53,968 nucleotides of DNA, taken from a virus. The position numbers were made by a program, and so were the translations under genes. Positions 2 through 50,856 of this stretch are shown here, one piece after another. The notes under the pieces are model-generated. The model saw only the letters and a list, made by a program, of their open reading frames with translations, searched no databases and was not told where the DNA came from. The stretch covers positions 1 through 53,968 of IMG/VR virus record IMGVR_UViG_3300049020_000042; one strand, written 5' to 3'. Within the stretch, counting starts at the first letter, position 1; each line of letters opens with the position of its first letter.

Positions 2-139
2 TTCTTGACAGTATTCATCCTAAATTGGAGAAAGCCTGGGGAGGACGAGCTTGATAAGCTTCAGGAAAGATTATCTGATTATGACTTCGTGAATTACAAT
101 GGCCACATTCCTGTTTTCGAGAAGAAAAAGGGTATTTGA
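2..139 (+). CDS. C-terminal end of an unrecognised gene cut by the window edge
   Basis: Only the last 45 codons are present, open from base 2 to the TGA at 137-139. The visible tail is polar and charged and ends in EKKKGI. Nothing in it identifies a family. Its stop codon lies inside the -35 hexamer of the next promoter, a compact arrangement that recurs at 831 and 51976. Confidence 0.6.
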   Translation, partial: FLTVFILNWRKPGEDELDKLQERLSDYDFVNYNGHIPVFEKKKGI

Positions 140-184
140 TAAAATAGCTCCTCGCCAGTAAAATATGGCACAAGGAGCTATTTT
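136..184 (+). promoter_or_regulatory. Sigma70-like promoter inside an inverted repeat that covers the next RBS
   Basis: TTGATA (136-141), 17-base spacer, TAAAAT (159-164). A perfect 11-bp inverted repeat (141-151 with 174-184) brackets the -10 box. Its right arm contains the GGAG ribosome-binding site of the gene at 186. A transcript started locally (about 171) lacks the left arm; a read-through transcript carries both arms and would hide the RBS. The right arm ends in TTTT, so it may also terminate upstream transcription. Confidence 0.6.
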
Positions 185-185
185 C

Positions 186-563
186 ATGACAGAGCATTCA
201 ACTATTTTCGTTACCTTCCAGAAAGAAGGTATTCATCGTTATCCAGCAGCAGCGACAGATCCCAAGCTCGCGACTGGTGACGAATATGATGTGAGTTTCC
301 TCGCCCACCCACATCGCCATATGTTTCACTTCCGAGTTACCATGGAAGTTTTCCATGATGATCGTGACGTTGAATTCATTCAATTCAAGAGATGGTTGGA
401 AAAGTTGTACAGTGACAAAACGTTGGTTCTGGATTACAAGAGCTGTGAAATGATGGCTAGAGAATTGTCCACCACGATTTTCGCGAAGTACCCCGACAGA
501 AGTCTGTCTATTGAAGTATCTGAGGATGGAGAAAATGGCGCAACACTCGCATTCACTCGCTGA
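186..563 (+). CDS. QueD/PTPS-like T-fold protein
   Basis: 125 residues. The ATG at 186 is preferred over an in-frame ATG at 165 because AAGGAG sits 8 bases upstream of it. The core HPHRHMFHFRV followed by EVFHDDRDVEF resembles the histidine-rich first half of 6-pyruvoyl/6-carboxy-tetrahydropterin synthases. CEMMARELSTTIF matches their central helix, and the C-terminal IEVSEDGENGATL matches the usual xVxET/Dxxxxxx end. The zinc ligands are not in the classic spacing, so enzymatic activity is uncertain; it may be a diverged partner of the clearer QueD at 48557. No other family looks better. Confidence 0.45.
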   Translation: MTEHSTIFVTFQKEGIHRYPAAATDPKLATGDEYDVSFLAHPHRHMFHFRVTMEVFHDDRDVEFIQFKRWLEKLYSDKTLVLDYKSCEMMARELSTTIFAKYPDRSLSIEVSEDGENGATLAFTR

Positions 564-834
564 TAAAGCAGCGAGGATATTCCTGATATCTACTGGAGTA
601 GCCAGTCGTGATATCAAGCGGTATCAACGATATAAAGTTCTCAAAGACAATGCTGATCGTTTGATGCATGTTTACGATTCTGTCTCAAACAACGATCTCT
701 TCAAAGCTGAGACGCAGTTGAAGATTGTTCGCGAAGTTAATGGCATCAATGAAGAATGTATTGCTCTCAAATCGAAGTTTGGTAGATTTGCCATCGCGAT
801 GGAACTCCAGGACGAATTGGCAAACAGACCTTGA
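535..834 (+). CDS. Hypothetical helical protein
   Basis: 99 residues from ATG 535 (AGGA about 9 bases upstream); ATG 526 is an alternative. Overlaps the T-fold gene by 29 bases. Mostly helical and charged (KIVREVNGINEECIALKSKF), no recognised domain. Its TGA lies within the TTGATT -35 box of the next promoter. Confidence 0.55.
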   Translation: MAQHSHSLADKAARIFLISTGVASRDIKRYQRYKVLKDNADRLMHVYDSVSNNDLFKAETQLKIVREVNGINEECIALKSKFGRFAIAMELQDELANRP

Positions 835-892
835 TTCGTTCTTCAGGTGAAAGTAAAATTGGCACTCTAAACAAGGAGTGCCAATTGTTTTT
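831..892 (+). promoter_or_regulatory. Sigma70-like promoter with hairpin over the next RBS and start codon
   Basis: TTGATT (831-836), 17-base spacer, TAAAAT (854-859). A perfect 11-bp stem (857-867 with 876-886, 8-base loop) follows, ending at a T-run (888-892). The right arm contains part of the AAGGAG RBS (873-878) and the first two bases of the TTG start at 885. Predicted initiation near 866 removes nearly all of the left arm. It could equally be an intrinsic terminator for upstream transcripts. Confidence 0.6.
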
Positions 893-1262
893 CCAACAGA
901 TTATCGTCAGAGTCAAGCAGTTCTTCTCTGAAGTCGACCGTAGGAAGACTGCATCAGCTCTTAGAAAGATTGCTGAATACGAAAAACAGAATTCTGCAAG
1001 ATTGCAGTCACTGGCTGCAATCAAGGATGATTACAACTTTACATATTACAACGTTCAGATGGCGTTCGTGAAAATGATTTCGACTCAAATTCAACGATAC
1101 GAGATACATCGTCAATGCTCACCAGGAGCATTTGCTGAGGAAATGATTCAGCAAATGAGTTCTGATCTTGAGCAACACGAAAAGGATGCTAAATCGACAT
1201 TTGATAAGCTCAGCCCGCAATATCAAGAACGAGTAATCTTAGAAAAGTTGTCCGAAGATTAA
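885..1262 (+). CDS. Hypothetical helical protein
   Basis: 125 residues if TTG 885 is the start; this codon lies 6 bases after AAGGAG (873-878), whereas an upstream TTG at 831 falls inside the promoter. Rich in Lys, Glu and Gln and predicted helical throughout, including YEKQNSARLQSLAAIKDDY and EQHEKDAKSTFDKLSPQYQ. No family recognised. Confidence 0.5.
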   Translation: MFFQQIIVRVKQFFSEVDRRKTASALRKIAEYEKQNSARLQSLAAIKDDYNFTYYNVQMAFVKMISTQIQRYEIHRQCSPGAFAEEMIQQMSSDLEQHEKDAKSTFDKLSPQYQERVILEKLSED

Positions 1263-1264
1263 TA

Positions 1265-1301
1265 TTGAGCGGCGTTGATGGAAATGCCATAATAATGGCA
1301 T
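1265..1301 (+). promoter_or_regulatory. Sigma70-like promoter predicting a leaderless mRNA
   Basis: TTGAGC (1265-1270), 17-base spacer, CATAAT (1288-1293), then only 6 bases before ATG 1300, so transcription should start at or next to the start codon. A 7-bp inverted repeat (1284-1290 with 1295-1301) covers the -10 box and the first two bases of the ATG. No good Shine-Dalgarno is present. Confidence 0.5.
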
Positions 1302-2400
1302 GACTAACACCATCTACATCGTCGATCTCGAAAGCGTCCCCACCCGTTACACTTGTCAATGGAAAGCGGGACTTCCAAACTCACTGCGAGAGTTCGTAAA
1401 ATCTCTTGGTACTGGGCATCAAGTAGTCAACATCAGTGGTGGTGATGTTGAAATGATTGCCACCCCAGGTGCGTTCCTCAACTTCGCAGGGACGAACGTT
1501 TACAAAAGCAATCAAGCCATTGAAATCTCCAAACTGTTCTCCGAGGGGAAAGTTCGTGATGGTGATCGCTTCCTATTCACCGATGCATGGAACCCCGCAA
1601 TCATCATGGTAAAGTACATGGTAGAGCTTCTGGGGATCAAAGCAGAGCTTCACGGAATTTGGCATGCTGGGTCATATGATCCGCAGGATTTCCTCGGTAG
1701 ACTGGTAAAGGACAAGCGTTGGAGCTTGTCAACTGAGAATGCCATCTATCATGCTCTTGACTACAATTACTTTGCAACCAACTTTCATATCAAACTGTTC
1801 CGTGACAATGTCCTCAACACGGTGGGTTTTGGTTCCAACCACGATGAGTCCAAGAAAAAGATGGTCCTCAGCGGCCAGCCACATGAGCATTTGATGTCGC
1901 ATTTGACACCATTCCGTGGTATGAAAAAGCGTGATTTGATCTTGTTCCCTCATAGAGTTGCGCCCGAGAAGCAGCCTGAAATCTTCCGTGATCTGGCCAC
2001 TTACCTGCCAGAATACGAATTCGTGGTTTGCCAAGATAAGCAGCTAACCAAGGATGAATATCACACACTTCTGGGTGAGTGCAAGATGGTGTTCAGCGCT
2101 AACTTGCAAGAGACTCTTGGTATCTCTGCCATGGAAGGCATTTACCTAGATGCCCTTGCTCTAGTTCCAGATCGTTTGTCATACTCTGAAATGTATGGCG
2201 ATCACTGCAAATATCCGTCCTTCTGGACTGAAGATTTCAATACCTACCAATTCCATCGTGATGAACTCGTGGCTCTAATCCGTGAAAAGATGACCAACTA
2301 CGAACGTGACATCAACCTGGTCTGGGAACAGAATGTCAAACTGGTAAGAGATTATCTTACTGGTGAAGTCATGTACAAAAACCTTACGACAGTGAGATAA
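1300..2400 (+). CDS. GT-B fold glycosyltransferase
   Basis: 366 residues. The C-terminal half has features of GT4-type enzymes: strand LILFPHRVAPEKQPEIF (about 212-228, the Rossmann strand with the basic HRxxxEK stretch), a VVCQD strand, and the donor-site block FSANLQETLGISAMEGIY (about 263-280), where Glu residues occupy the place of the family E-x7-E motif. The N-terminal half contains IFVTDAWNP-like and LHGIWHAGS segments as in acceptor domains. It may glycosylate phage DNA bases or a surface glycan; the nearby 7-deazaguanine genes make the first attractive, but that is inference. No SD: probably translated from a leaderless message. Confidence 0.6.
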   Translation: MTNTIYIVDLESVPTRYTCQWKAGLPNSLREFVKSLGTGHQVVNISGGDVEMIATPGAFLNFAGTNVYKSNQAIEISKLFSEGKVRDGDRFLFTDAWNPAIIMVKYMVELLGIKAELHGIWHAGSYDPQDFLGRLVKDKRWSLSTENAIYHALDYNYFATNFHIKLFRDNVLNTVGFGSNHDESKKKMVLSGQPHEHLMSHLTPFRGMKKRDLILFPHRVAPEKQPEIFRDLATYLPEYEFVVCQDKQLTKDEYHTLLGECKMVFSANLQETLGISAMEGIYLDALALVPDRLSYSEMYGDHCKYPSFWTEDFNTYQFHRDELVALIREKMTNYERDINLVWEQNVKLVRDYLTGEVMYKNLTTVR

Positions 2401-3305: not shown

Positions 3306-3343
3306 ATAAATAATATTGTAAGCATCACGAGGATGCTTACAAT
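3306..3343 (+). promoter_or_regulatory. T4-type late promoter followed by a 12-bp hairpin
   Basis: ATAAATAA (3306-3313) matches the T4 late -10 element. A perfect 12-bp inverted repeat (3315-3326 with 3332-3343) begins 1 base later, and initiation near 3319 would cut into its left arm. The right arm holds an ATG (3342) opening a 12-codon ORF (3342-3380, MVIVDLTRVASQ) that could be a leader peptide for folE. Confidence 0.55.
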
Positions 3344-3437
3344 GGTGATAGTTGATTTAACTAGGGTGGCATCGCAATGATACGTCCTTCCATAACATGA
3401 GGTTATGGTAAATTTTCGCAATATGAGGTTGCAAAAC

Positions 3438-4115
3438 ATGAGCTACAATAAGAATAAATGTGATCCAGAGTTGGGCAAAGCAGTCCAAGCACACTTGGAA
3501 AAGTTGGGTCTCCACACCCCCATGTCCACCAATACCCTGAATGCAAAGCAAAAGATCGCCAAGATCGAAAAGCACATGCAGGGTATCATGCAAACTTTGG
3601 GACTGGATCTCACTGACGACTCCTTGATTGAAACGCCTATTCGCGTTGCCAAGATGTACGTCAACGAGGTATTCTGGGGTCTTGATCCAGAAGCATTCCC
3701 CAAATGCACCGCAGTAGACAACAAGATTTCCTATGATGAAATGGTAGTTGAAGAAGACATTACTGTGATGTCAAACTGCGAACACCACTTCGTAACCATC
3801 GACGGCTTTGCCACCGTAGCCTACTTGCCCAACAAGAAGGTCTTGGGTCTGAGCAAGATGAATCGCATCGTGGAATACTTCAGCAAGCGCCCACAGATTC
3901 AAGAACGTCTAACCGTTCAGATCGCCGAAGCACTCAAGTTTATTCTTGACACTGAGCATGTGGCCGTTCTCATTAACGCATCACATTATTGCGTGAAGAG
4001 TCGTGGTGTTGAGGATACAAACTCCCACACTATTACTAGCCACCTGAGCGGCAAGTTCAGGGAAGACGCTTTGGTTCGTGGTGAATTCATGGCACTGGCC
4101 ACCAGACGCAAGTAA
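3438..4115 (+). CDS. folE: GTP cyclohydrolase I
   Basis: 225 residues, close to the usual 220. It converts GTP to dihydroneopterin triphosphate, the entry step to folate, pterins and, with QueD/QueE/QueC, to preQ0. Zinc ligands are visible: CEHH (C114, H117) and C185 in HYCVKSRG. SKMNRIVEYFSKRPQIQERL is the family signature. Start ATG 3438 chosen because GAGG lies 8 bases upstream; ATG 3405 has its GAGG only 2 bases away. With QueE at 8527 and QueD at 48557 it points to 7-deazaguanine synthesis rather than only folate supply. Confidence 0.93.
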   Translation: MSYNKNKCDPELGKAVQAHLEKLGLHTPMSTNTLNAKQKIAKIEKHMQGIMQTLGLDLTDDSLIETPIRVAKMYVNEVFWGLDPEAFPKCTAVDNKISYDEMVVEEDITVMSNCEHHFVTIDGFATVAYLPNKKVLGLSKMNRIVEYFSKRPQIQERLTVQIAEALKFILDTEHVAVLINASHYCVKSRGVEDTNSHTITSHLSGKFREDALVRGEFMALATRRK

Positions 4116-4143
4116 GTAGTCATTTAAGACTCCTAGCCCTCAG

Positions 4144-4162
4144 ATAAATATTCCTTTATCTG
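4144..4162 (+). promoter_or_regulatory. T4-type late promoter inside an inverted repeat
   Basis: ATAAATAT (4144-4151) lies in the left arm and loop of an 8-bp repeat (4141-4148 with 4155-4162). The right arm runs into GGGGG, the likely RBS of the gene at 4174. This is the same arrangement T4 uses to restrict translation of some genes to late transcripts. Confidence 0.55.
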
Positions 4163-4173
4163 GGGGCATTTTC

Positions 4174-4668
4174 ATGGCTGTACTACAGGGCAGGAGTCCT
4201 AAAACAACATTTGCCAATCTTCTTACTGTAGAGGGAGGATTGACCGTATCTTTGACGCCGGTAGAGAGTGGTGGGGGAAAAACAACCCCATTGAAGCTTT
4301 CAACCACTTCGATTTCAATTCACGATTTAACTTTTCCATCCACAGGCGTAGCCGCTGGTAAGGTACTGACTATCTCTGCTGATGGTCTATCCATGGAATG
4401 GAAAACACCTGCGGCAAGTTCAGGTGGCGGGGGTGGTGGAACAGTTCTGGAGACCGAAGCCGACGCGATCTATTACGAATACAACGATGATGAAGTCGTG
4501 AGTGTGATGACTGAGCATTTTGGTTCTGAGACCAGAGTAACCACCTATAGCTACAGCGTAACTGGCAAGGTGGACACTATCACAATCGAATATTTGGGTC
4601 AAACTCGAATCGAAACTTACACATACATCAACGGCAAAGTGACCTCTATGGTTGCTTCTTCTCTTTAA
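4174..4668 (+). CDS. Small virion/fibre-associated protein
   Basis: 164 residues behind a late promoter and directly before the large fibre gene. The first half is a repetitive Ser/Thr/Gly-rich beta sequence (KTTPLKLSTTSISIHDL) typical of fibre shafts and fibritins, followed by a poly-Gly hinge SSGGGGGG near 88. The second half has YD-like beta repeats (TTYSYSVTGKVDTITIEYLG). Probably a fibre or fibre-base component; exact role not determinable. Confidence 0.55.
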   Translation: MAVLQGRSPKTTFANLLTVEGGLTVSLTPVESGGGKTTPLKLSTTSISIHDLTFPSTGVAAGKVLTISADGLSMEWKTPAASSGGGGGGTVLETEADAIYYEYNDDEVVSVMTEHFGSETRVTTYSYSVTGKVDTITIEYLGQTRIETYTYINGKVTSMVASSL

Positions 4669-38755: not shown

Positions 38756-39118
38756 TCAAATACCTGACATCAGTTCTGTGATCTGTTTCAGCTTTTGATT
38801 GACGCGTTCACCATCTTCGGTATTCAACATTCCCATTGAATAGAAGATCGGATATCCGTTGATGTTCATGTTCACGGCTTCAGAATAAAGGCCGTAAAAA
38901 TGCACGATACCATCACGGATGAATTCTTTTCTCGTGATTTCATCGATGAACACAAGGGGCATGAAGATGTTGGGGAGCAGGTTGATATCGTGCGCAGCGA
39001 TCATCCAACTGGTAAAGATTTCACCACGGAAAAGTTGCATGGCTAGATCCTTGATCTCAGCATCAGTCTTTGCCGTATATTGCGACTCTTCCTTAAACTC
39101 GCCAGACCTGAATTCCAT
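38756..39118 (-). CDS. Hypothetical protein
   Basis: 120 residues. EIKDLAMQLFRGEIFTSWMI and PNIFMPLVFIDEITRKEF are helix-strand segments; no family name recognised. It has its own regulated-looking promoter. Confidence 0.6.
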   Translation of the reverse strand: MEFRSGEFKEESQYTAKTDAEIKDLAMQLFRGEIFTSWMIAAHDINLLPNIFMPLVFIDEITRKEFIRDGIVHFYGLYSEAVNMNINGYPIFYSMGMLNTEDGERVNQKLKQITELMSGI

Positions 39119-39119
39119 G

Positions 39120-39174
39120 ATTATGAGCTCCGTTGTTAGGAGCTCATAATATTTTCATTTGATGCCTAAGTCAA
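39120..39174 (-). promoter_or_regulatory. Sigma70-like promoter with 12-bp repeat over the RBS
   Basis: On the (-) strand: TTGACT (39174-39169), 17-base spacer, TATTAT (39151-39146). The perfect repeat 39120-39131/39139-39150 overlaps the -10 box on one side and the GGAG RBS (39131-39128) on the other, one base before the ATG. Confidence 0.65.
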
Positions 39175-43816: not shown

Positions 43817-43852
43817 TTCATTTGGTGTTATAATTCCTCCATCAACAGGAGG
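43817..43852 (+). promoter_or_regulatory. Extended -10 promoter with RBS hairpin
   Basis: TTCATTTGGTG (43817-43827) next to TATAAT (43829-43834, preceded by TGT). CCTCC (43836-43840) pairs with the RBS GGAGG (43848-43852), and initiation near 43841 would remove CCTCC. Confidence 0.5.
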
Positions 43853-43856
43853 TCTT

Positions 43857-44111
43857 ATGTCGTTAGTTCGCTTCATTATTCAATATCAGAACACTGACGG
43901 GTATACGTTCTTCTGTACCGAGACTCGTCCGGTGGAATATTCGTCAATCCCAGAATTCCTGAACGACTTTGAGTTGGCTGCGATCAAAGCCTATACTCAA
44001 GACCTCGATACCATTTCCGTAGGTCGGTATACCTTCCCGATCAACGCCGGGATAGAAGATGGTGAATACTACGCACCACAAACCATCACCCTTGACGAGT
44101 GGTTCCGATAG
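43857..44111 (+). CDS. Hypothetical protein
   Basis: 84 residues from ATG 43857 after AGGAGG; the longer frame from 43800 crosses the promoter. LVRFIIQYQNTDGYTFFCTE and DFELAAIKAYTQDLDTISVG suggest a small alpha/beta fold. Confidence 0.55.
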   Translation: MSLVRFIIQYQNTDGYTFFCTETRPVEYSSIPEFLNDFELAAIKAYTQDLDTISVGRYTFPINAGIEDGEYYAPQTITLDEWFR

Positions 44112-47486: not shown

Positions 47487-47708
47487 ATGAAAACTTATTC
47501 ACTCGACTTGCCGGAAATTCGTACCGGACTCATCACTTCTGTTTCTTTGTCAGATCGCACCGCTATCGTTGATATAGACGGCTGTTCTTACAACATCCCC
47601 ACCACAGTGTGGGAAGCGGGGCCAGGCGCTCTGCAATCTGGTTTTGAGGTCCGGGTATTACTTGCTTATTCCACTGCTACCATCCTGGCTATTTCTGAGA
47701 TCTTGTGA
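47487..47708 (+). CDS. Small OB-like hypothetical protein
   Basis: 73 residues from ATG 47487. LITSVSLSDRTAIVDIDGCS and GFEVRVLLAYSTATILA resemble S1/OB strands. Its 3' end overlaps the convergent kinase-like gene by 51 bases. Confidence 0.5.
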   Translation: MKTYSLDLPEIRTGLITSVSLSDRTAIVDIDGCSYNIPTTVWEAGPGALQSGFEVRVLLAYSTATILAISEIL

Positions 47709-48482
47709 TCCTGAGGTTCTGCTGGCAGTCTTACCACCTTCTCTCCTGTCCTTGGGTCTGAAGGCAAACTTCAGAAACTCATTGTTCAATGCCACGTCTT
47801 TGTTGTTTGCAATCGGGTCGAGAATCACCAGTTGACCATCGGCTCGTTTCATAACATTCCCCGCATGTAGGTCCAGGTGGTTATCGCCCAGTTCCATGAT
47901 ATCCATGATAGTGTTAACCAATAGAGTCAACACTGGATCAAAGTTCGTCGGATTGTAGGTAAAGTTGGCACCACGATTGTTTTGCATCGCGTGTGTGAAA
48001 CCATTCAGATCTTTGAACAGTGCCTTCTCACAAAGCTGCACTACGTTTTCAAAGTTCACATAACGGTAACTCCCCCATTCATCCTCTTCTTCCTCATCCT
48101 GGAATTCTGGGTGGACTTCCCAACTGTTGCCCGTTAGATGACCCACTGGGATCAACTTTTCCATCTTCACGTATTTGACCACGTCGGGTGCATTACTGGA
48201 TCTAAGGAAGAATGCAGGCATGGTTTTGATTCCACCATGGAACTTTGGTAGGAATTGATTCCCCTGATTCGCCATGCAATATCGGGCGAAAGCTTCATAT
48301 GCCGAATCAACTAACCAGAATTTGTAAACTTCTTCGCCAATCTGAAGAGCCATAGCATGCATCCCCACACCCAGAAGTTTCACAGAATTGAAATTGCCAC
48401 CAAAGAACTTTTCTATATCGGCAGACGTCATGTTTTGAAACTTCTTCACACCGACCATTTCCTCGATTTCACTGTATCGCAT
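47658..48482 (-). CDS. Protein-kinase/APH-fold protein with possible capsid-targeting N-terminus
   Basis: 274 residues from ATG at 48482 (GAGGG about 7 bases upstream). LLGVGMHAMALQIGEEVYKF is a degenerate glycine-rich loop with the Lys; NHLDLHAGNVMKRADGQLVI is the catalytic loop (HxDxHxxN) leading to LDPIANN in place of DFG. An acidic insertion (DEEEEDEWG) lies mid-domain. It starts MRYSEIEEMV; MRYSQIVEAS at 51421 is similar, and both end in I-x-E, the T4 prohead-protease cleavage pattern. It may therefore be packaged and injected; that is inference. Confidence 0.6.
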   Translation of the reverse strand: MRYSEIEEMVGVKKFQNMTSADIEKFFGGNFNSVKLLGVGMHAMALQIGEEVYKFWLVDSAYEAFARYCMANQGNQFLPKFHGGIKTMPAFFLRSSNAPDVVKYVKMEKLIPVGHLTGNSWEVHPEFQDEEEEDEWGSYRYVNFENVVQLCEKALFKDLNGFTHAMQNNRGANFTYNPTNFDPVLTLLVNTIMDIMELGDNHLDLHAGNVMKRADGQLVILDPIANNKDVALNNEFLKFAFRPKDRREGGKTASRTSGSQDLRNSQDGSSGISK

Positions 48483-48506
48483 TGCCATTCCCTCACTTTG
48501 TTCTAT

Positions 48507-48536
48507 TTAGACGGAATGGCACGTTCAAACTATAAT
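48507..48536 (+). promoter_or_regulatory. Sigma70-like promoter for queD
   Basis: TTAGAC (48507-48512), 18-base spacer, TATAAT (48531-48536); AAAGG RBS at 48546-48550. Confidence 0.55.
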
Positions 48537-49248: not shown

Positions 49249-49656
49249 TCATTTCTTTTCCGCTCTTCTCTTTTCCGCCCTGGCACCAGCCTCCAGGGCG
49301 GTTTTTGCCTTATGGCATGGAACGCATAACGTTTGGAGATTGGGTAATTGCCAAAACGTTAGATCACCCTGAGCTTCAATCAATGGCTGGATGTGATCCA
49401 GATGCCAACCGTGATTCCGTCTCTCACATTGAGTTCCGCAGGAACGACAGACTCCCTTATCTCTTTTCCACACAACCTTTCTGGCCTCACTGGGCCAGAA
49501 CATAAGTTGATATTCCTTAACGCAAGCTGGATGCCATCTTGCTCTTGATTCCTTGCCAGTCCTAGTAAGACCAATGGCTTGATTGCACCAACGGCATGTT
49601 CCAACCGGAGTGCAATCAAAGTGAGGGGGAAGTGGTGGTTTTCTATGAGCGCTCAT
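49249..49656 (-). CDS. HNH endonuclease (late)
   Basis: 135 residues. Four CxxC-type pairs: CRWC, CRSC, and CVPC with the HNH centre WHLDHIQPLIEAQGD and LQTLCVPCHKAKT. Of the type found as stand-alone phage HNH nucleases. Controlled by a late promoter inside a hairpin that overlaps its ATG. Confidence 0.85.
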   Translation of the reverse strand: MSAHRKPPLPPHFDCTPVGTCRWCNQAIGLTRTGKESRARWHPACVKEYQLMFWPSEARKVVWKRDKGVCRSCGTQCERRNHGWHLDHIQPLIEAQGDLTFWQLPNLQTLCVPCHKAKTALEAGARAEKRRAEKK

Positions 49657-49676
49657 TGGGGATATTTATCCCCAAT
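49655..49676 (-). promoter_or_regulatory. Late promoter inside a 10-bp hairpin over the start codon
   Basis: Perfect 10-bp repeat (49655-49664 with 49667-49676, 2-base loop). The (-) strand late box ATAAATA (49669-49663) is at its centre and the ATG (49656-49654) overlaps its end. Late initiation would give an mRNA with almost no leader and no hairpin. Confidence 0.6.
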
Positions 49677-49679
49677 TTA

Positions 49680-49970
49680 TCACATGAAATCTTTAGGATC
49701 AAGTCCGCTACTGCGCCACACAATTTCAGCAGCGAATTGCCCTTGATGTGTAGCTCGACGAAGTCGTTCCTGGAACGTAATAGGTGGTGAACCTTTGGGA
49801 TCCTGATAGGCTTCCATCGAACCAAGCAGAATCCTATCATGGAATGCACGGCCTTTCTGATCTTCTGCTTTTCGACGGATTCTGGCTTTGTCCACTGCAT
49901 TAAGTGGCGGTAGCCCGAGATCATTTCTATTAGCTTCTACGAAGCGTTGGAGTTGAAGTTTGGGGTGCAT
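49680..49970 (-). CDS. Small basic hypothetical protein
   Basis: 96 residues. VDKARIRRKAEDQKGRAFHD and FQERLRRATHQGQFAAEIVW are helical and Arg-rich. A 7-bp repeat (49972-49978/49986-49992) lies next to a possible -10 (TATCAT, 49996-49991 on the (-) strand) and its right arm covers the AGGATG RBS. Confidence 0.55.
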   Translation of the reverse strand: MHPKLQLQRFVEANRNDLGLPPLNAVDKARIRRKAEDQKGRAFHDRILLGSMEAYQDPKGSPPITFQERLRRATHQGQFAAEIVWRSSGLDPKDFM

Positions 49971-50005
49971 AATTCATCCTTTCTAGATGAATGATAGCAT
50001 GAAAT

Positions 50006-50362
50006 TCATTTAACCAAATCAGATTTCATAATCTTCTTTATGATGCCTCGATACTGATGCGGATGTTCGCCACTAAGACTCAAGAACATCTCCCAGTTGT
50101 CATTGGTAGTCCAGAGGTTCATGAACTTTTCACCGTTCATGTCAATCACATATTCATTGGGATCATAGATTGATCCCAAGTATGCCAAGAACTTCAGCAT
50201 GAACATTTGGGGAATCTTAGGAAATGCTGCTGGTGACGTTCTATTCTTGGAGTCACGATAGAACGGGGTTGAATCCACTCCATCACTGCATCGAGTCCTG
50301 GCGATCTGAAAGTAGAAATTCATACCAGGACGGTCAACAAACGGGTTATCACTGATTCTCAT
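50006..50362 (-). CDS. Hypothetical protein
   Basis: 118 residues. LWTTNDNWEMFLSLSGEHPH near the C-terminus is loosely similar to the DDW-LxG proteins at 45494 and 46295. No further clue to function. Confidence 0.5.
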   Translation of the reverse strand: MRISDNPFVDRPGMNFYFQIARTRCSDGVDSTPFYRDSKNRTSPAAFPKIPQMFMLKFLAYLGSIYDPNEYVIDMNGEKFMNLWTTNDNWEMFLSLSGEHPHQYRGIIKKIMKSDLVK

Positions 50363-50388
50363 AATACTGAATGAAGTTGATGCGTGCC

Positions 50389-50417
50389 AGTATACTGCTA
50401 AATCAAATTCTTTTCAA
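50389..50417 (-). promoter_or_regulatory. Sigma70-like promoter on the (-) strand
   Basis: TTGAAA (50417-50412), 17-base spacer, TATACT (50394-50389). ATACTG/CAGTAT (50388-50393 with 50364-50369) pairs the -10 region with bases just before the ATG. Confidence 0.55.
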
Positions 50418-50810
50418 TCCCAAGTGAAGATTGTCTGCCAATATTGGGGCATGTTTGAACCTATCATTCACTGACTCAACGGATAGACGAGAATCGATAA
50501 TCTCAAAGAGTTTGTCGTCGTAGACGGTCATCACGTCAACCTTCACACTCAGGTCTGAGATCGAAATCGTTCTCAAATCCTCAATAAGAGCGCCGATCAT
50601 TTTGGAGCATCCAACGGTCCATATACCATCTGGTATATAATCGACAAAGTTTTTCCTTAGTTCGGTAATCGCCACCCCTCTCCGCAGAACTTCTGCGAAC
50701 AAGTTATCTCTGAACTTATCCACACTGGCAGTCATGAAGAATTTGGTATTGAACACCATATGTTCATGTTCGTCATCGTAGGTGCCGTAAGATATAATTG
50801 CTTGTTCCAT
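50403..50810 (-). CDS. Hypothetical protein
   Basis: 135 residues. KFFMTASVDKFRDNLFAEVL, SKMIGALIEDLRTISISDLS and VKVDVMTVYDDKLFEIIDSR give an alpha/beta pattern. No SD before the ATG; a 32-bp palindrome lies 14 bases upstream. Confidence 0.55.
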   Translation of the reverse strand: MEQAIISYGTYDDEHEHMVFNTKFFMTASVDKFRDNLFAEVLRRGVAITELRKNFVDYIPDGIWTVGCSKMIGALIEDLRTISISDLSVKVDVMTVYDDKLFEIIDSRLSVESVNDRFKHAPILADNLHLGLKRI

Positions 50811-50824
50811 AAAGATGAGAAATG

Positions 50825-50856
50825 ATAATGGCAGGTAGAATTCTACCTGCCATTAT
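50825..50856. repeat. Perfect 32-bp palindrome overlapping a -10 box
   Basis: Bases 50825-50840 mirror 50841-50856 exactly. On the (-) strand TATAAT occupies 50857-50852, so the palindrome starts in the -10 box and covers the initiation site of the gene at 50810. Confidence 0.7.

Follow-up and report, generated by a model that had tools for sequence, protein, structure and literature searches.

Promoter-spanning hairpins as candidate insulators of translation against read-through RNA in a group of jumbo phages

Perfect stems whose right arm lies at a ribosome site are in large excess in seven genomes of a group of jumbo phages, and their left arms are fitted to the promoters of the genes that they precede. 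We propose, with a probability of roughly 0.8, that these hairpins are cis-acting translation insulators that are built into promoters and that silence read-through RNA genome-wide, at sigma70-type promoters as well as at late ones. The left arm would be situated in DNA that its own promoter leaves untranscribed, this being either the spacer between the -35 and -10 boxes or the stretch between the -10 box and the transcription start, and the right arm would be situated in the 5' leader, where it covers or adjoins the Shine-Dalgarno sequence or the start codon. RNA that is started locally would lack the left arm, leaving the ribosome site open, and RNA arriving from a co-directional upstream gene would contain both arms, so that the hairpin hides the ribosome site. 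As a result, each hairpin gene would be translated on the schedule of its own promoter, and both sigma70-type (TTGAC-17-TAnnnT) and T4-late-like (TAAATA) promoters would carry the device. The proposal is built on the computed excess of stems, the fit between left arms and promoters, a bias in gene orientation and covariation between the arms, and from these observations we infer the transcription starts, the actual read-through and the translational silencing.

The window, by which we mean the whole stretch of DNA that was analyzed, is a 53,968-base record of a virus fragment. Of the named phages, Sinorhizobium phage Phosso and Agrobacterium phage Atu_ph07 have the tail sheath proteins nearest to that of the window (about 50%) and, judging from sequence comparison, the window is part of the genome of a jumbo myophage that is kin to both. 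The IMG/VR contig G032 is closer to the window than the named phages are (tail sheath 67%, largely syntenic), and no close DNA relatives of the window were found in the phage collection. Within the window, no tRNA was found and Rfam gave no matches at the gathering score. Genes were called by a simple coding-score caller, and promoters and transcription starts were placed by consensus; for three Phosso hairpin genes that lie in an annotated stretch, the called starts are the same as the GenBank starts. Stems were enumerated directly. A stem was counted at a start region when it was perfect, was at least 9 bp long and had a right arm overlapping positions -14 to +2 of the start, and dinucleotide shuffles were used for the gene-start counts in the window.

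A sequence-only reading of the window had listed nine sites, here S1 to S9, at which a promoter lies in or beside the left arm or loop of a perfect repeat whose right arm contains the next ribosome site or start codon. This listing was partly confirmed, in that the layout is real but uneven. Strong stems are present at S1, S2, S4, S5 and S7. On the plus strand, the S1 promoter (136-164) consists of TTGATA (136-141), a 17-base spacer and TAAAAT (159-164), with a predicted transcription start at about 171; its perfect 12-bp hairpin (141-184; arms 141-152 and 173-184, loop of 20) has the left arm in the promoter spacer and AAGGAG (172-177) at the right arm, followed by the ATG at 186 of a phrog_17812 gene (186-563). 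The S2 promoter, also on the plus strand (831-859), reads TTGATT-17-TAAAAT (-10 box at 854-859) with a predicted start at about 866, and the right arm of its 11-bp hairpin (857-886; 857-867/876-886) overlaps both the Shine-Dalgarno sequence AAGGAG (873-878) and a TTG start codon (885). This hairpin is followed by a T-rich tail and therefore may double as a terminator. At S5, on the minus strand, the promoter (39146-39174) is TTGACT-17-TATTAT with a predicted start at about 39139, and a 12-bp hairpin (39120-39150; 39150-39139/39131-39120) lies over the GGAG of gene 38756-39118(-). The minus-strand site S7 (49655-49702) has TTGATC-17-TAAATT and a 9-bp stem (49676-49668/49663-49655), the right arm of which holds the ATG (49656) of an HNH endonuclease gene (49249-49656, minus strand). 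S4 (4137-4166, plus strand) departs from this promoter type: the box there is TAAATA (4145-4150), which is T4-late-like, not TTGA-17-TATAAT, and lies in the left arm, and the 12-bp stem (4137-4148/4155-4166) requires one G-U pair (8 bp Watson-Crick). Its right arm covers GGGGG ahead of the ATG at 4174.

The other sites are weak or marginal, and in them the window had been overcounted. S3 (1265-1301, plus strand; TTGAGC-17-CATAAT) has a weak 7-bp stem (1284-1290/1295-1301) with a 4-base loop over the ATG at 1300, and its predicted transcription start is the ATG itself, i.e., leaderless and without a Shine-Dalgarno sequence. The stem of S8 (49972-49996, minus strand; extended -10 box TATCAT) is likewise weak, with 7 bp over the AAAGGA of gene 49680-49970(-). 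Marginal cases are S6 (43829-43857, plus strand), with an extended -10 box TGTTATAAT and a 5-bp CCTCC/GGAGG pairing over the Shine-Dalgarno sequence of gene 43857-44111 that is not the favoured fold, and S9 (50364-50417, minus strand; TTGAAA-17-TATACT), with a 6-bp stem directly ahead of the ATG at 50362 and without a Shine-Dalgarno sequence. One site had not been listed: at 48483-48521 on the minus strand, a 9-bp stem has a loop of 21 bases containing TAAATA and a right arm that abuts the ATG (48482) of gene 47658-48482(-). The read-through logic is weaker here, because the upstream neighbour is divergent.

Compared with shuffled sequence, the window contains an excess of such stems, as the sequence-only reading had expected, and the excess is far stronger in its relatives. 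The window has 4 stems of 9 bp or more over called gene starts, against 0.15 after shuffling. For stems of at least 7 bp the count is 9 against 3.2; since this barely tops the shuffle maximum of 8, the sites with 5-7 bp are individually indistinguishable from chance. In the whole window, perfect stems with 10 bp or more and a loop of up to 40 number 29, whereas a shuffle yields about one; many of the 29 are ordinary intergenic stem-loops, and it is therefore the position relative to starts that counts. For the 634 starts of Phosso, 29 stems of 9 bp or more were counted, compared with 1.5 in shuffles (23 against 0 for at least 10 bp), and Atu_ph07 has 34 against 5.3 (19 against 0.25 at 11 bp). 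The corresponding numbers for stems of at least 9 bp are 36 against 1-3 in G037, 24 against 1.5 in G032, 9 against 1.3 in G034, and 6 against 0.7 in G038. Altogether, a stem of 9 bp or more is present at about 4-5% of genes overall and at about 10% of genes with a TTGAC promoter. The Shine-Dalgarno sequence or the start codon is inside the right arm in 108 of the 144 hairpins of this length; the others, about 36, have neither in the right arm and adjoin the start region, an example being the UvsY family, in which the stem lies just upstream.

The trait is not shared by the whole of the wider group, because G033 (5 against 2) and G035 (1 against 1) show little or no excess of stems of at least 9 bp; the rows near these two on a quick tail sheath tree are also hairpin-poor. 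T4 itself has 6 such stems over starts against 2 after shuffling. In the phages 121Q, PA5oct, CBB, phiKZ, SCTP-2, KVP40, G and SPO1 there are about 10 in total against 5.6 expected, SCTP-2 being the highest, and the host replicons pSymB of S. meliloti and pAtC58 of A. fabrum have 1 and 3, together 4 in 385 genes against 1. As these other phages and host replicons show little or no excess, the trait is concentrated in the Phosso/Atu_ph07 phage group. Back-to-back TAAATA late promoters between divergent genes (L144, L163, L164; T4 77337/77385) create inverted repeats by themselves, and hairpin counts at late promoters are confounded for this reason. The high counts at the distant loci L144, L163 and L164 are due to such divergent palindromes and were not taken as support.

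Several lines of evidence connect the hairpins to promoters. Firstly, TTGAC is present between -85 and -35 in 43% of hairpin genes versus 18% of other genes. Secondly, when positions are counted from the first T of TTGAC (n=60), left-arm coverage starts past the -35 box and ends at about the predicted transcription start, with two maxima, one in the spacer and one in the region between the -10 box and the start, and right-arm coverage begins at about the point where left-arm coverage ends, at the predicted start. Thirdly, the predicted start, as placed by consensus, coincides with the end of the left arm or lies beyond it in 61 of 65 TTGAC-type sites and in 23 of 27 TAAATA sites. It falls between the arms in 57 of the 65 TTGAC sites, whereas exchanging promoter positions among hairpin genes gave a mean of 50.4, with 14 of 2000 permutations as high; the excess over the permutations is the fair measure, because typical spacings already give part of the agreement. 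Finally, when only the promoter interior was shuffled and the leader was kept, the number of stems of at least 9 bp in 570 TTGAC genes dropped from 56 to 0-3. The TAAATA box is concentrated between -40 and -25 relative to starts, as expected of a late promoter, and in 22 of the 27 hairpin genes with this box the predicted start again lies between the arms. Only a subset of sites, namely S4 and the TAAATA sites, qualifies as T4-type late promoters (TATAAATA); most hairpin sites are sigma70-type, and the involvement of sigma70-type promoters had been anticipated correctly. Atu_ph07 encodes a T4-like late sigma factor (PMC6102473).

The orientation of neighbouring genes is strongly biased. Among genes with a TTGA[CT] promoter that are separated from the upstream gene by 30 bases or more (80 hairpin, 553 non-hairpin), the upstream neighbour is on the same strand for 79 hairpin genes and on the opposite strand for 1, versus 450 and 103 for non-hairpin genes (p=3.8e-6). 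In the late class, the neighbour is on the same strand for 19 of 20 hairpin genes versus 134 of 236 non-hairpin genes (p=3e-4); these p values from pooled orthologues are approximate, as the genes compared across genomes are related. Such a bias fits a device against read-through, because the device is needed only where read-through can arrive. Operators or 5'-leader structures would not give this bias, and terminators would.

Folding predictions point in the same direction. In 60 TTGAC hairpin genes, the mean unpaired probability from -12 to +3 rises from 0.27 for read-through RNA to 0.53 for the RNA that the local promoter is predicted to make; shuffling the promoter interior brings read-through RNA to 0.40. 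In the window, the change between read-through and local RNA is clearest at S1 and S5, but at S2, S8 and S9 this crude folding measure shows little change at the Shine-Dalgarno position.

The same-strand bias would also follow from translational coupling, in which the start is closed unless a ribosome finishing the upstream gene opens the hairpin. Left arms start at a median of 16 bases past the upstream stop codon, and because about one third of them (32%) begin within 12 bases of it, a terminating ribosome could open the hairpin and couple translation. On the other hand, the left arm overlaps the upstream reading frame in only 4% of cases, 65% of left arms begin at least 12 bases past the stop, and the placement of the promoter exactly between the arms is left unexplained. 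We consider coupling unlikely as an explanation of the hairpins. Quite unlikely, too, is that they are intrinsic terminators of the upstream gene, which the local promoter escapes with an RNA that has no left arm. Terminators likewise predict the bias, and a minority of hairpins, among them S2 and several sites of Atu_ph07, combine a T tail with a loop no longer than 9 bases; a T tail is present at 23 of the 144 hairpins, and some short-looped ones may also terminate. Like intrinsic terminators, the hairpins are stem-loops between co-directional genes; unlike them, they have long loops that contain the -10 box or the transcription start, few T tails, and a right arm at the translation start. 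The median loop is 14 bases and the T-tail frequency 16%, against a loop of 4 and 46% in the convergent gaps of the same genomes. The stems moreover track the Shine-Dalgarno sequence or the start codon, as described above, and the bias persists after removal of short-looped or T-tailed hairpins (48 of 49, p=7e-4). Coupling with upstream translation and partial termination are possible at individual sites. We hold it to be very improbable that the stems are sites for RNase III or another processing activity that matures the downstream message in read-through RNA: both arms would be needed only in that RNA, which accounts for the orientation bias, but processing would not require a site on the Shine-Dalgarno sequence, and stems of 9-17 bp are short for efficient cleavage by RNase III.

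Insulation by pairing is further supported by covariation. In the family of the UvsY-like recombination mediator (PHROG 231), 11 homologues retain a stem that lies between the -35 region and the start. In 11 of 15 pairs, both sides have changed while pairing is preserved, none of 500 shuffles attains the covariation score, and 88.5% of cells pair, versus 64.5% when shuffled and 30-46% when slid. The S5 family was compared by eye: the TTGA -35 box, the -10 box and the hairpin over the start are kept in L386, L388 (from G032), L392 (from G034) and L393, with arms in the window and these four relatives that can be as different as ATTATGAGCTCC, TGATGGC and TCACGCATC; when L392 is compared with L393, one pair is changed on both sides and two become G-U. 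The sequence-only reading had held that the arms differ at every site, which is correct save for the shared Shine-Dalgarno complement, and that pairing rather than a shared operator is conserved, which is borne out by these double-sided changes between unlike arms; its interpretation is thus supported. It is scarcely credible that the repeats are DNA operators of a repressor or otherwise DNA-level promoter elements: although they overlap promoters, and back-to-back TAAATA promoters form palindromes unaided, the arms vary between sites, covary within the homologues of one gene and are often 10-30 bases apart, and the hairpins are nearly absent at divergent promoters, which operators would not avoid. 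Over all genome pairs, orthologues have hairpins in common 21 times against about 8 expected (p=2e-5, approximate because the pairs are not independent). The orthologues of S1 and S3 are without such a hairpin, and hairpins at individual genes turn over.

The proposed insulation has precedents. In the case of the T4 genes e, soc, 49 and I-TevI, the Shine-Dalgarno sequence or start codon is sequestered in a helix of the early read-through RNA, and a promoter in the 5' strand of the helix gives RNA lacking that strand (PMC3014915). In T4 this concerns a few genes with late TATAAATA promoters and has been shown experimentally, whereas the hairpins described here, predicted from sequence, precede many diverse genes with mostly sigma70-type promoters, and the left arms are often in the -35/-10 spacer. 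S7, an HNH endonuclease gene with its ATG in the right arm, may be compared to the masked starts of the homing endonucleases I-TevI and Aeh1 mobE. The transposase genes of IS10 and IS50 are likewise protected from impinging transcription. Transcripts that enter IS200 from outside fold and block the ribosome site of the transposase, and are also terminated (PMC3196728). These are single genes of mobile elements facing host promoters, whereas here many phage genes in their own clusters are concerned. The logic matches that of T4 e, and the differences concern the scale, the promoter class and the lineage. The papers that we found on Atu_ph07 and on a Sinorhizobium jumbo phage say nothing about promoters or hairpins, and we found no genome-wide account of such read-through-silenced starts in a literature search with subscription journals mostly outside its coverage, which is weak evidence.

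We lean slightly towards a broader reading, in which this phage group insulates its transcription units at translation and not by terminators. A large share of internal promoters would hold, in the part that they do not transcribe, the complement of the ribosome site downstream; pervasive read-through would be tolerated in this way, since only RNA from near the promoter would serve as a message. The device would be lineage-specific, would evolve fast and gene by gene, and would operate at early-type and at late promoters. The timing of phage gene expression is usually framed in terms of promoters and terminators. If, throughout the genome, genes can be read only from their own promoters, RNA abundance alone would misjudge which genes are active, and, if insulation is true, RNA-seq data of jumbo phages would have to be interpreted together with 5' ends. 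A curiosity of T4 would become a general principle whose predictions are simple and testable, the DNA of promoter spacers and discriminators would be seen to be under selection for RNA pairing, and a promoter design that resists leakage from read-through would be on offer.

Some other hairpins of the window deserve mention. At 50825-50856, a perfect 14-bp stem with a loop of 4 containing ATAATGGCA lies upstream of gene 50403-50810(-) and ends about 15 bases before its start. Upstream of folE (GTP cyclohydrolase, 3438-4115), the region 3310-3440 contains three small hairpins with loops ACGAG or ATGAG followed by G, and at the folE orthologues of G032 and G034 there are two hairpins with the loop AAGAG and different stems. 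These ANGAG-loop hairpins have no Rfam match and are a local, not a genome-wide, motif. The first of them (3315-3343) has a 12-bp stem after GATAAATAATA, and the ATG in its right arm (3342) opens a reading frame of 12 codons, which possibly encodes a leader peptide with a similarly masked start.
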